The position numbers and the translations under genes are program-made. From positions 1-33,284 of the forward strand of contig JAJPEP010000025.1 of the NCBI GenBank assembly GCA_021166845.1: a DNA stretch of 33,284 bases, read 5' to 3'. Numbering within the stretch: position 1 is the first letter of the stretch; every line of letters starts with the position of its first letter. Shown piece after piece: positions 5,201 through 32,682 of the stretch. This stretch comes from Thiobacillus sp. (lineage in GTDB: Bacteria; Pseudomonadota; Gammaproteobacteria; Burkholderiales; Thiobacillaceae). Under the pieces are notes generated by a model. The model did no database searches, was not told where the DNA came from, and saw only the letters and a program-made list of their open reading frames with translations.

Positions 5201-5349
5201 GAGGGGTGAGGCCTAGGGAGGGGTCAGGATTCAGGGATCAGGGGTCAGGGGTGGAGCGGCCTTCGGCCGCGCTTATTTGAGAAGGCGCGAAGCGACATCC
5301 CCTGACCCCTGAATCCTGACCCCTAGTCCCTTAGTGGCCCCCTGATCCC
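5201..5349. repeat. GGGGTCA palindromic element, copy A (nrtB-nrtD gap)
   Basis: The nrtB-nrtD spacer is filled by an imperfect palindrome. The outer arms are AGGGGTCAGGATTCAGG (5219-5235) and its complement CCTGAATCCTGACCCCT (5307-5323). The centre is a GCGGCC-TTC-GGCCGC hairpin (5256-5270) followed by GCTTATTTGAGAAGGCGCGA. Extra GGGGTCA and GGGGTGA units flank it. Related copies occur at 18681-18803 and 19495-19612. Being inside an operon, it is transcribed and may act as an mRNA stabiliser or processing site between the permease and ATPase genes. Confidence 0.85.
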
Positions 5350-16148: not shown

Positions 16149-17417
16149 TTAGCGCCTGGCGCTACTTGGTGGATAGTCCTTCGGCAGCAGCACCCACATG
16201 CGGCCGCGCTGCTTCATGCGGCCGGCGAGCTCGCCGGCCTTGTCGCCGAAGCCCCAGAAGAAGTCGGCGCGCACGCCGCCGCGAATGGCGCTGCCGGTAT
16301 CCTGCGCCATCACCAGCCGGTTCAGCGGCAGCGCCGAATTGGGCTGGGCGGTGGCGAGGAAGACGGGCGCGCCGAGCGGAATGAAGCGCGGGTCGACGGC
16401 GATCGAGCGGCCGCCGGTCAGCGGCACGCCGAGCGCGCCCAGCGGGCCGGGCAGGCTGTCGGGCAGTTCGCGGAAGAACACGAAGCTGGGATTGCTGGCG
16501 AGCAGATCCGGCAGCTTGTCGGGGTTCTTCACGCCCCAGTTCTTGATCCCCTGCATCGAGGCCTGTTCGAGTTTCAGCTCGCCGCGCTCGACCAGCAGCT
16601 TGCCGATCGACTGGTAAGGATGGCCGTTCTGGTCCGCGTAGCCGACCCGCATATGCGAGCCGTCCGGCAGCTCGATGCGTCCCGAGCCCTGGATCTGCAG
16701 GAAAAAGAGATCGACCGGGTCTTCGGCCCAGGCGATGGGTTTTCCCTTGAAGCCGTCGCCAGCCATCCCGATTTCCTTGCGTGTGGGGTAGGGCACCAGT
16801 TTGTTGCCGAGCAGCCGCCCGCGCAGGCGCAGGTTTTTCAGTTCAGGATAGACGCTCGCCAACTCCACCGAGACGAGGTCGTCGGGGACGGCGTAAAGCG
16901 GAAAGCGCGCCCGCTCGGTGCGCACGCGGTCGCCTTTCAGCAGGGGCTCGTAATAGCCGGTCACCATGCCTTCGGCGCTGCCGTCCTCCTGCGTGGCCTG
17001 GTAGGGCCGGAAGCGCCGTTCGAAAAAGGCGCGCGTCGTCGCGTCGTCGGGCGTCCCCATCGCCGCCGCTTCGCTGCAGACCGCCTGCCACGCGGTGCGC
17101 CTGGCCAGTGTGGAACAGCTGTGCAGGAAAGCGCTCCAGGTTTCGCTGATGGCGTCGTCCTGCCAGAAGGCCACTGCCGTCCAGTCCACCGGTTTGAGCG
17201 TGGGGTAGGTCGTCGCCGGCGTGGGAATGAGCGCCGGCGGCGCAGCGGGCGGCTCGGGCGCCGGTTGCGGCAGCGGCGCAGGCATTGGTGCGGGCATTGG
17301 TGCGGGCATTGGTGCGGGCGTCGGGGCGGGGAGGGGGGCGGGCGGTTCCGCGGGCGGGTGCACCGCGCAAGCTGACAACAACAGGGCGAACAGCCACGGG
17401 CTTGCGTGTAACAGCAT
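16149..17417 (-). CDS. mltA: Membrane-bound lytic murein transglycosylase A
   Basis: This 422-residue lipoprotein cleaves peptidoglycan with anhydromuropeptide formation. A lipobox LSAC places the lipidated cysteine at residue 17. A proline-rich linker with repeated PAPM units spans about 20-60. Then come the MltA core (GMVTGYYEPLLKG...RFPLYAVPDDLV) and the 3D domain (RSIAVDPRFIPLG...NRLVMAQDTGSAIRGGVRADFFWG), whose AQDTGSAI aspartate is the likely catalytic acid. Oddly, the start codon directly abuts an array of CCCCTGA units, so there is no Shine-Dalgarno. Translation may depend on coupling to apaG, 94 bases upstream on the same strand. Confidence 0.9.
   Translation of the reverse strand: MLLHASPWLFALLLSACAVHPPAEPPAPLPAPTPAPMPAPMPAPMPAPLPQPAPEPPAAPPALIPTPATTYPTLKPVDWTAVAFWQDDAISETWSAFLHSCSTLARRTAWQAVCSEAAAMGTPDDATTRAFFERRFRPYQATQEDGSAEGMVTGYYEPLLKGDRVRTERARFPLYAVPDDLVSVELASVYPELKNLRLRGRLLGNKLVPYPTRKEIGMAGDGFKGKPIAWAEDPVDLFFLQIQGSGRIELPDGSHMRVGYADQNGHPYQSIGKLLVERGELKLEQASMQGIKNWGVKNPDKLPDLLASNPSFVFFRELPDSLPGPLGALGVPLTGGRSIAVDPRFIPLGAPVFLATAQPNSALPLNRLVMAQDTGSAIRGGVRADFFWGFGDKAGELAGRMKQRGRMWVLLPKDYPPSSARR
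17281..17328. repeat. mltA: 12-bp in-frame tandem repeat in mltA
   Basis: GGCATTGGTGCG occurs three times in perfect tandem (17281-17316), followed by a decayed fourth copy. On the minus strand it encodes the PAPM units of the lipoprotein linker. Being a multiple of three, copy-number change would alter linker length without a frameshift. Confidence 0.9.
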
Positions 17418-17507
17418 CAGGGGTCAGGGGTCAGGGGTCAGGGGTCAGGGGTCAGGGGTCAGGGGCCAGGGGCCAGGGGTCAGGGGTCAGGGGCGAGCCA
17501 TCGCCCC
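17418..17507. repeat. Telomere-like (CAGGGGT)11 array between apaG and mltA
   Basis: Eleven uninterrupted heptamers fill 17418-17494, eight of them CAGGGGT and three CAGGGGC. A hairpin GGGGCGA-GCCA-TCGCCCC (17490-17507) follows. The array starts at the base after the mltA start codon and ends just before the apaG stop, so it occupies the whole gap. The plus strand has G4 runs with three-base loops, which favours G-quadruplex formation on the template strand for mltA. Confidence 0.95.
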
Positions 17508-18680: not shown

Positions 18681-18803
18681 AGGGGTCAGGATTCAGGAGT
18701 CAGGATTCAGGGAAGGTGCGGCCTGCGGCCGCGCTTATTCAAGAAACCGCGAAGCACAAAGCCTCCTGACCCCTGAATCCTGGCCCCTGACCCCTGACCC
18801 CTA
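18681..18803. repeat. GGGGTCA palindromic element, copy B (rpe-gph gap)
   Basis: The left arm AGGGGTCAGGATTCAGG is at 18681-18697 and the right arm CCTGAATCCTGGCCCCT at 18772-18788. The central hairpin is GCGGCC-TGC-GGCCGC (18718-18732), followed by GCTTATTCAAGAAACCGCGA. Extra CTGACCC units run to within six bases of the gph ATG. It is the same element as copies A (5201-5349) and C (19495-19612). Confidence 0.88.
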
Positions 18804-18808
18804 ACAAA

Positions 18809-19489: not shown

Positions 19490-19494
19490 GTTTC

Positions 19495-19612
19495 AGGGGT
19501 CAGGATTCAGGGGTCAGGGGCCAGGGAAGGTGTGGCCGATGGCCACGCTTTTCTTGAATAAGGCGCGCAGCGACTAACCCTGACCCCTGAATCCTGATCC
19601 CTGACCCCTGAC
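19495..19612. repeat. GGGGTCA palindromic element, copy C (gph-trpE gap)
   Basis: The left arm AGGGGTCAGGATTCAGG is at 19495-19511 and the right arm CCTGAATCCTGATCCCT at 19586-19602. The central hairpin is GTGGCC-GAT-GGCCAC (19532-19546). The stem differs from copies A and B by a paired change (C to T on one side, G to A on the other), keeping the helix. It begins just after the gph stop and ends two bases before the trpE ATG. Confidence 0.88.
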
Positions 19613-19613
19613 C

Positions 19614-31013: not shown

Positions 31014-31745
31014 ATGGCAGGACATTCGAAGTGGGCCAACATCCAGCACCGCAAGGGACGCCAGGATGCCAAGCGCGGCAAGATCTTCACCAAGCTTATC
31101 AAGGAAATCACCGTGGCGGCCAAAATGGGCGGCGGCGACACGGGCATGAACCCGCGCCTGCGCCTGGCGATCGAGAAGGCCAAGGCCGAGTCGATGCCGA
31201 AGGACAACATCGAGAGCGCGGTCAAGCGCGGCACCGGCCAGCTCGAAGGCGTCAACTACGAGGAAGTGCGCTACGAGGGCTACGGCATCGGCGGCGTCGC
31301 GGTGATGGTCGACTGTCTCACCGACAACAAGGTGCGCACCGTCGCCGACGTGCGCCATGCCTTCGTCAAGCACGGCGGCAACATGGGCACCGACGGCTGC
31401 GTGGCATTCCAGTTCAAGCACTGCGGTCAGATCGTCCTGGAGCCGGGCGCCAGCGAGGAGGCGGTGATGGAAGCCGCGCTCGACGCCGGCGCCGAGGACG
31501 TCATCCCCAACGAGGACGGTTCGATCGAGGTGCTGACCTCGCCCGATCCCAAGGCCTTCGAGGCGGTGAAGGAGGCGCTGGAAAAGGCCGGGTTCAAGCC
31601 GGCGGTCGCCGAGATCACCATGCGCCCGGAAGCCGAGACTGAACTCGTGGGAGACGACGCGGCGAAGATGCAGAAAATCCTCGACGCGCTCGAATCGCTG
31701 GACGACGTGCAGGAGGTCTACACCAACGCCGTGCTTCCTGAGTGA
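31014..31745 (+). CDS. yebC: YebC/TACO1-family protein
   Basis: This 243-residue protein starts [28 protein letters not shown], the invariant YebC opening. It shows [56 protein letters not shown] and [15 protein letters not shown] in short conserved blocks. Older annotation treats YebC as a transcription factor; recent work on the family supports a role in translation of proline-rich stretches. It stands first in the yebC-ruvC-ruvA series. An S23-type gene is inserted between it and ruvC, and the left inverted repeat of that insert begins at its stop codon. Confidence 0.95.
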
Positions 31746-32170
31746 GGCGTAAGGGGTAAGACGTGAAGCGGGTTCACCATGAGCTGGCGGCTTGGCAGCA
31801 AGTCATGCTTCTGGTGAGACAGGTGTACGAATTGACGGCGGGGTTTCCTGCTGACGAGCGATTCGGACTGGTGGCGCAAATGCGGCGCGCGGCTGTGTCG
31901 ATCCCCAGCAATATTGCGGAAGGCGCAGCACGCCAGTCCAAACGTGAGTTTGCACAGTTTCTGATCGTGGCGCGCGGTTCGCTGAGCGAATTGGATACGC
32001 AATTCAGAATCGCCCAGGATTTGGTTTTTTATCCACCGCAGAGCGAACTTGAAATGCAGATAGACCGTCTGCTTGGTTTATTGGGTGGGCTGCTCAAATC
32101 CCAGCGGGAGTCAGAAAAGACATGACAGCCCCCAACCGTGCTCCCTCACCTCTCACCCCTCACCCCTCAC
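31742..32170. mobile_element. Putative S23 cassette flanked by 24-bp inverted repeats
   Basis: The left repeat (31742-31765) starts GTGAGGCGTAAGGGGTAAGA. The complement of the right repeat (32147-32170) starts GTGAGGGGTGAGGGGTGAGA. They agree at 20 of 24 positions. The 429-base unit encloses the four-helix-bundle gene; its left end overlaps the yebC stop and its right end lies inside the ruvC reading frame. No transposase is encoded, so mobility would need help in trans. The repeats resemble other GGGGTGA/GGGGTCA sequences in this window, so an alternative is recombination between resident repeats. Confidence 0.6.
31763..32125 (+). CDS. Four-helix-bundle protein (S23/IVP, Avd-like)
   Basis: This 120-residue protein matches the family first seen in 23S rRNA intervening sequences. 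Typical blocks are [45 protein letters not shown], and [27 protein letters not shown], followed by a final helix. The fold is related to Avd of diversity-generating retroelements, but no reverse transcriptase or template repeat is seen here. A GTG at 31763 follows AAGGGGTAAG, which is both ribosome site and part of the left inverted repeat. Its stop overlaps the ruvC ATG. It interrupts the usual yebC-ruvC neighbourhood. Function unknown. Confidence 0.88.
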
Positions 32171-32682
32171 GCATACTGGGCATTGATCCCGGCCTGCGCC
32201 TCACCGGCTTCGGCGTGATCGAGCAGACCGGCCAGAAGCTGGCCTATGTCGCCAGCGGCGTCGTCAGGAGCGGCGAAGGCAGCCTGCCGCAGCGGCTGGG
32301 CGTGCTGTTCGCCGGGCTGAACGAAGTGATCGCCACCTGGCAGCCCGATACCTGCGCGGTGGAAATCGTTTTCGTCAACGTCAATCCGCAATCCACGCTG
32401 CTGCTCGGGCAGGCGCGCGGGGCGGCGATCTGCGCCGCGGTGTCGAATGAGTTGCTGGTGGCGGAATACACAGCGCTGCAAATCAAGCAGGCGGTGGTCG
32501 GCCATGGCAAGGCTGCCAAGGAACAGGTGCAGGAAATGGTCAAGCGCCTGCTGAGTTTGCCCGTCGCCCCGACGGCGGACGCCGCCGACGCGCTCGCCTG
32601 CGCCATCGCCCATGCCCACGGCAGCCGGCTCGGCGCGCATTCCACTGCGGGCTATCGCGTCAAGGGCGGACGCCTCGTATGA
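32122..32682 (+). CDS. ruvC: Holliday junction resolvase RuvC with altered N-terminus
   Basis: This 186-residue endonuclease resolves Holliday junctions with RuvAB. The catalytic acids Asp22 (GIDPG), Glu81 (CAVEIVF), Asp153 and Asp156 (TADAADALA) are in place, each 15 residues later than in E. coli (7, 66, 138, 141). The first 16 residues, [15 protein letters not shown] after Met, come from a C-rich repeat and have no counterpart in normal RuvC, which starts at the RILGIDPG segment. There is no other in-frame start codon between 32122 and that segment, so the extension must be translated. Its ATG overlaps the S23 stop, implying coupling. Confidence 0.93.

Follow-up and report, generated by a model that had tools for sequence, protein, structure and literature searches.

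The S23 gene between yebC and ruvC in the window (the whole analysed stretch of 33,284 nucleotides), together with the inverted arms enclosing it, probably represents a free-standing, site-loyal member of the class of intervening sequences (IVSs) known from 23S rRNA, with arms that pair in operon transcripts. At the level of sequence, our comparisons establish the arms, their period of seven, their pairing with compensatory change, their concerted change, the patchy presence of the element at a fixed site and purifying selection on S23. In the yebC-ruvC transcript, the paired arms would form a stem of about 24-30 bp that encloses the S23 message, and RNase III could cut this stem, as in rRNA IVSs. 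Such an insert would be harmless only where the transcript may be cut, either between operon genes or at tolerant rRNA helices; tolerance of transcript cutting would explain both kinds of site. S23, with an Avd-like fold and solved relatives that have five chains per entry, would probably bind the arms via the AG recurring every 7 nt, and the element would keep its own site and reach other strains either through a homing-like gain or when a filled allele is transferred. The features concerned are as follows.

31014..31745, plus strand: yebC, with its stop codon TGA (31743-31745) inside the left arm
31742..31765, plus strand: left arm, imperfect heptads GTGAGGC, GTAAGGG and GTAAGAC followed by GTG, its 3' end being the S23 GTG start; 20/24 inverted match
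31763..32125, plus strand: S23 gene, GTG start at 31763-31765, 120-residue four-helix bundle (PF05635, TIGR02436)
32122..32682, plus strand: ruvC, ATG at 32122; the right arm encodes the second half of its N-terminal extension
32143..32170 (24-base core 32147-32170), minus strand: right arm, CCCTCAC heptads (TRF period 7, 4.0 copies)

The window element is about 440 bp long and contains a single gene, S23, between two arms, each made up of a few degenerate heptads. The period is 7 in both; TRF called the right arm, the left one being too imperfect for it. Positions 31742-31765 (GTGAGGCGTAAGGGGTAAGACGTG) and the reverse complement of 32147-32170 agree at 20 of 24 positions, which makes them the best 24-mer inverted pair; none of 600 random 24-mer positions in the window without its heptad regions reached 20 (maximum 18), bearing out the original prediction that 24-bp inverted repeats with 20 matches bound the S23 gene. 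A repeat search of the window with an exact 9-base seed reported no inverted pair, because mismatches break up the seeds, and the arms become visible once mismatches are allowed. The RNA fold of the element has a z-score of -2.9, with the arms closing the stem. The left repeat had also been said to overlap the yebC stop and to contain the S23 GTG, and the right one to lie in ruvC and encode part of a 15-residue N-terminal extension, both of which agree with the coordinates above: a 16-letter protein stretch from the in-frame ATG at 32122 comes before RILGID, and the right arm is within the ruvC frame.

Arms of this kind were sought around S23 loci from three sets: (i) the same family, in which 57/117 genomes had a PF05635 hit (92 loci used from 95 places, leaving out G038:C136, the second piece at G081:C25 and G113:C10); (ii) a phylum sample, with 62/398 genomes (69 loci used, leaving out repeats, fragmentary and weak rows); and (iii) named genomes, the best 80 of 588, from a profile scan built on alignment A1, with record titles naming Planctomycetes, Clostridia, Bacteroidetes, Acidobacteria, Chloroflexi, Verrucomicrobia, candidate phyla and others. 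The last is an uneven sample, because only loci with a conserved 13-residue stretch were kept. Near-duplicates also occur, as L170 repeats L041 and L221 shares its arms with L010. The upstream flank was compared with the reverse-complemented downstream flank at a threshold score of at least 14, for which 238 of the 241 loci were usable and three had too short flanks. Inverted arms were found at 173/238 loci (the named ones being the best 80 of 588), compared with 1/654 in a shifted control and 28/714 in cross-locus pairings. The figures were 75/91 for the family (shifted 1/251, cross-locus 17/273), 41/67 for the phylum (0/193 and 6/201) and 57/80 for the named loci, again the best 80 of 588 (0/210 and 5/240). 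The low cross-locus rate indicates that the two ends match one another, beyond mere likeness to a common repeat. The expectation that other S23 genes have the same ends therefore holds for the kind of end, although the repeat sequence differs and the arm score is below 14 in 65/238 loci. The best period of the 153 pairs scoring at least 16 was 7 in 143, 8 in seven and another value in three; a best period of 8 was seen at L032, L155, L172, L176, L230, L269 and L270, and of 9 at L278. Over 138 elements, the medians were 31 bp for the arm, 383 bp for the inside and 443 bp for the whole element.

The ends had been envisaged as a single conserved terminal repeat; they are instead degenerate heptad arrays changing in concert. 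The 122 ungapped period-7 elements contained 76 distinct heptads, which, when aligned by rotation, gave a common NNNNNAG pattern (A 0.83, G 0.92) with five other, variable positions and an information content of 3.48 bits, where permuted heptads gave 2.97 (sd 0.05). Left arms contained four or five AG-phased heptads in 81/138 elements, and none or one in 15/138. Pairing was examined at the largest site cluster, flanked by genes encoding E1 beta of pyruvate dehydrogenase and an E2 subunit (PDH site), using 17 of the 20 rows of alignment A2 and leaving out the near-duplicates L010 and L221 and the weak L083. The 28-pair stem, which was defined from the same sequences it was tested on, showed standard pairs in 93.4% of cells over the 17 elements, vs at most 56.7% in slid versions. 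Both sides had changed in 32 cells, where shuffles gave 11.7 (0/500 as high), and the covariation score was 0.223 vs 0.140 shuffled (0/500). The pairs with both-sided change numbered eight, not above shuffles (250/500 as high), and further pair types were fewer than in shuffles (500/500 as high). The compensatory change possibly reflects few events, because most of it, in one sequence group, is TC replaced repeatedly by CT in the left arm and GA by AG in the right. The similarity of left and right arms within an element holds at 18.6-24.4 over 30%-100% S23 identity, a value kept above 14 by selection since only elements scoring at least 14 were compared, and in these elements the similarity of the same arm between elements drops from about 25 to about 6 as S23 diverges. 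As judged from these comparisons, both arms of one element change in concert, and the unit differs between elements.

S23 genes were also found within two 23S rRNA genes of one genome (G046; loci L073 and L074), with heptad arms of the same kind as those of free-standing copies (TCAGGAATCAGAGTTCAGG...). When all 241 S23 loci were scanned for 23S motifs, these two alone had them, and among the loci returned by a query of 398 genomes with the L073 S23, L322, at the same G046 place, was the only one with such motifs, so that no further rRNA case was added. Rfam applied to 20 phylum or named S23 loci with weak inverted matches (all <10.5) detected an FMN riboswitch in L247 and 23S rRNA in none of them, which indicates that those 20 weak-arm loci are not rRNA inserts. 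A broken S23 copy with a frame break (L323, region of G167:C1:98160) lies outside rRNA, with an arm-like match of 18.5.

According to the part of PMC4990558 available to us, the 23S rRNA IVS of Coxiella burnetii, with an S23 open reading frame, is 428 nt long, has a 28-bp terminal stem and is excised by RNase III, and earlier authors cited there proposed that IVSs are mobile. It shares with the window element the S23 family (by name) and terminal inverted repeats forming a stem, and its 428 nt and 28-bp stem compare with our median element of 443 bp and median arm of 31 bp (PMC4990558, in part). Complementary ends able to form a stem, as expected of an IVS, are present in the window element and also in the 17 PDH-site elements; the other mark of an IVS, a location inside a 23S rRNA gene, is absent, as the window element lies between yebC and ruvC, between protein genes, whereas the Coxiella IVS lies in rRNA. 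Period-7 arms and concerted arm change are absent from the available part of PMC4990558 on the Coxiella IVS. A literature search that left most subscription journals outside its coverage found no link between S23 genes and heptad arms, a weak negative, and so far as this literature shows, the heptad-arm architecture around S23 across phyla is the new part. This common architecture (heptad arms, AG every 7 nt and matched ends) ties free-standing S23 copies to rRNA intervening sequences, and raises the questions of S23 binding to heptads, of transcript cutting at the arms and of the matching of arms about 380 bp apart.

The empty yebC-ruvC sites proposed as a comparison do exist. ruvC was found in 52/56 genus genomes, and 50 of 54 places were readable as junctions, leaving out G091 (partial), the second G086 copy and two G071 pieces; 11 had the S23 element, 27 were empty and 12 had other cassettes. 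GGGGTGA repeats at yebC-ruvC in genomes without S23 had been named as evidence against a cassette; this objection fails, since period-7 arrays were present at 11/11 S23-filled, 0/27 empty and 0/12 other-cassette junctions. Empty junctions had a spacer of 14 bases in 22/27, and the codon directly before RILGID, the ruvC start, was TTG in 23 and GTG in four; the 15 extra RuvC residues thus accompany the element, since empty junctions start directly before RILGID. As predicted, the element goes with a changed ruvC start: in 10/11 filled junctions the reading frame of ruvC extends across the right arm as far as an in-frame ATG that, on inspection by eye, overlaps the S23 stop codon, and L122 has no start in that frame. 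The yebC stop was TGA in 11/11 filled, 1/27 empty and 4/12 other-cassette junctions. When filled and empty junctions were compared by eye, the short empty-site spacer was replaced in the filled ones, and no target-site duplication of the kind expected of a MITE or non-autonomous transposon was visible. On the host tree of yebC plus ruvC, the S23 state requires nine changes, at least seven of them forced by well-supported branches, so that its presence is patchy rather than clustered (106/500 shuffles as low); well-supported sister pairs of a filled and an empty genome are L104/L106, L118/L116 and L119/L135. This patchiness may come from the transfer of filled alleles by homologous recombination, because CTTCCTGAG precedes the arm in 5/11 filled junctions and is also shared by L123, which holds another cassette. 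By length and ends, the 12 other-cassette junctions contain two kinds of small toxin-antitoxin-like modules, six each: one, translated in L100, is a Phd-like plus PIN-like pair by eye, and the other was translated from L096 and L120, of which L096 has a confirmed DUF5615. The presence of such modules in 12/50 genomes suggests that the yebC-ruvC junction tolerates insertions.

In the S23 tree, proteins group by insertion site. The tree was built from 93 proteins, with few columns and many unresolved forks; L003, L010, L170, L177 and L221 were excluded, as were proteins that were weak or interrupted and, from L093 onwards, all loci not belonging to one of the six largest site clusters. With seven labels (six sites and "other"), it requires 18 changes vs 60.7 with shuffled labels (0/200), a signal to which host relatedness adds because sites were defined by shared flanking DNA; the changes per site are two for yebC-ruvC, three for the PDH site and seven, three, two and three for sites 3 to 6. 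Copies from one genome separate in the tree: each of the two S23 elements of the window's genome lies among copies that other species have at the same site, and G046 has its yebC-ruvC copy among the other yebC-ruvC copies, apart from its rRNA copies. Both yebC and ruvC were present in 17/17 rows (16 places) of the yebC-ruvC cluster, from five genera (g1, g7, g10, g11 and g12). Near-identical copies at many sites, as expected of a MITE, were not seen among S23 elements, which cluster by site instead, and a freely transposing S23 cassette was rejected on this ground. Pfam neighbours at other sites (one or two representatives each) were GDP_Man_Dehyd|Epimerase, GDP_Man_Dehyd|dTDP_sugar_isom, IMPDH|GATase and PAPS_reduct|GTP_EFTU, and Complex1_30kDa was upstream of S23 in one case. 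Over 157 loci, both neighbours were on the S23 strand in 42, one was on the same strand and the other uncalled in 46, both were uncalled in 55 and at least one was opposite in 14. Median dN/dS at four sites was 0.073 (82 pairs), 0.148 (39), 0.05 (11) and 0.058 (3), with single pairs up to 0.67; the low medians indicate that S23 is kept as a protein under purifying selection.

Heptad repeats also occur apart from S23. In the window they form three short hairpins, with a related core and each in the gap between neighbouring genes, and one lone array:

5219..5324: S23-less heptad hairpin between BPD_transp_1 and ABC_tran genes (ABC transporter pair), RNA fold z -5.8
17417..17493: lone (TCAGGGG)11 array (TRF), no inverted partner called
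18681..18804: S23-less heptad hairpin between Ribul_P_3_epim (rpe) and HAD_2 (gph-like) genes, z -9.8
19493..19613: S23-less heptad hairpin between HAD_2 and Chorismate_bind (trpE) genes, z -9.9

A blended query of the hairpin core, which included some heptad letters, gave nine places in the window's genome, and the literal core query matched in 26/56 genus genomes. TCAGG arrays had a median of 55 in the 14 genomes with a TCAGG-type S23 element vs 7 in the other 42 (p 1.1e-5), and GTGAGG arrays a median of 10 in the 11 genomes with the yebC-ruvC element vs 1 in the other 45 (p 2.8e-5), with p 0.03 and 0.13 for the cross pairings; these statistics ignore the kinship of genomes, and G066 (PDH-side element at a contig end) was counted as without and G081 (interrupted copy) as with. 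A requirement of the arrays for a resident S23 was rejected, because G006, G007 and G008 have many heptad arrays and no PF05635 hit (32 TCAGG plus 37 GTGAGG arrays in G007, and 65 plus 59 in G008).

These repeats bear on two other accounts of the arms. It is very improbable that the arms are incidental simple repeats, produced by heptad slippage in intergenic gaps with S23 nearby by chance. Arrays are common in these genomes, and heptanucleotide repeats were the most abundant long-repeat class in most genomes surveyed (Mrazek 2007, as cited in the available part of PMC4679880), but inverted pairs stand at both S23 ends with narrow spacing (median 383 bp inside), and the shifted controls (1/654) and the 39 junctions without S23, none of which has an array, already contradict this account. 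A DNA-level transposable element seems rather improbable: the arms would be terminal repeats bound as double-stranded DNA, and S23 elements and short hairpins alike would be moved by an unlinked transposase or recombinase, with S23 as helper or regulator. It would accommodate the short S23-less hairpins, three in the window and with a core in 26/56 genus genomes, and the array counts that follow the heptad of the resident S23 element (p 1.1e-5 and 2.8e-5). Against this, each S23 lineage keeps to its site in different genera, the junctions show no target duplication, heptad arrays are present without S23, and the array association ignores kinship, with one cross pairing also at p 0.03. The suggestion of a small non-autonomous mobile cassette fits the patchy presence at the site, and finds no support in that close S23 relatives share one site in several genera, with no movement between sites, and no target duplication was seen by eye.

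A further possibility is that S23 serves the host, as a useful small operon protein with arms that act as an RNA processing or attenuation signal setting the ratio of upstream to downstream product. Strong purifying selection on S23, site loyalty and the position between co-oriented genes (in 42 of 157 loci both neighbours share the S23 strand, and in 46 one does and the other is uncalled) would fit such a role. We consider it unlikely nonetheless, as presence is patchy with filled and empty sister genomes, unrelated gene pairs carry the S23 element, and the toxin-antitoxin-like cassettes at yebC-ruvC point to a place that tolerates insertions. The preferred reading of a site-loyal IVS relative could be extended to a broader one, which is possible though doubtful: S23 elements would be bacteria-wide elements homing at the RNA level, with an S23 ring that reads one AG per heptad and arms that are rewritten together into any matching heptad, the rRNA IVS being only the best-known site. 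When the element is copied, one arm would serve as the template for the other, possibly through a reverse transcriptase, a role suggested because the S23 fold is Avd-like.

Repeats with some likeness to the arms are the TAACTGA heptamers described from marine Beggiatoaceae, some cyanobacteria and Bacteroidetes (PMC4679880, in part). Like the heptad arms, they are tandem heptamers, mostly intergenic and often directly before a start codon; unlike the inverted arms, they are described in the available part of PMC4679880 as direct repeats of a single heptamer. The words "intervening", "IVP", "four helix" and "S23" have no occurrence in the main text of PMC4679880. The S23 elements may bear on the abundance of heptamer repeats in some bacterial genomes. 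A heptanucleotide stem of inverted degenerate heptamers, as in the S23 arms, also forms P6b of the cyanobacterial tRNA-Leu intron, which, unlike the S23 elements, is a group I intron without an S23 gene.

To our knowledge, S23 or four-helix-bundle genes are widespread and have no established function. The window S23 matches PF05635 with E 6.4e-32 (110.4 bits vs a cut-off of 33.8) and TIGR02436 with E 2.5e-31 (108.1 bits vs 24). Its predicted model has a pLDDT of 96.3, and the nearest structure is 2gsc (TM 0.91); against the solved four-helix-bundle members, TM was 0.77-0.91 for 2gsc (Xcc0516) and 0.70-0.80 for 2rld (BT_0352). These two proteins share family and fold with the window S23 and have five chains per entry; their function is not established, and the entries name no link to repeats. 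The fold also resembles that of Avd of diversity-generating retroelements (DGRs), with TM 0.64-0.77 and E 0.1-0.6 to the structures 8ube, 8ub7 and 4dwl. The window S23 was rejected as a DGR Avd, as its match to the Avd profile is weak (E 5e-4) and far below the cut-off (20.3 vs 80 bits) and it adjoins yebC and ruvC, whereas DGR Avd adjoins a reverse transcriptase. Elsewhere in the window's genome, a weak S23 match (L003, G000:C91:6887-7123) lies beside a region that looks DGR-like by eye, with the Avd position, a repeat and a reverse-transcriptase-like frame.
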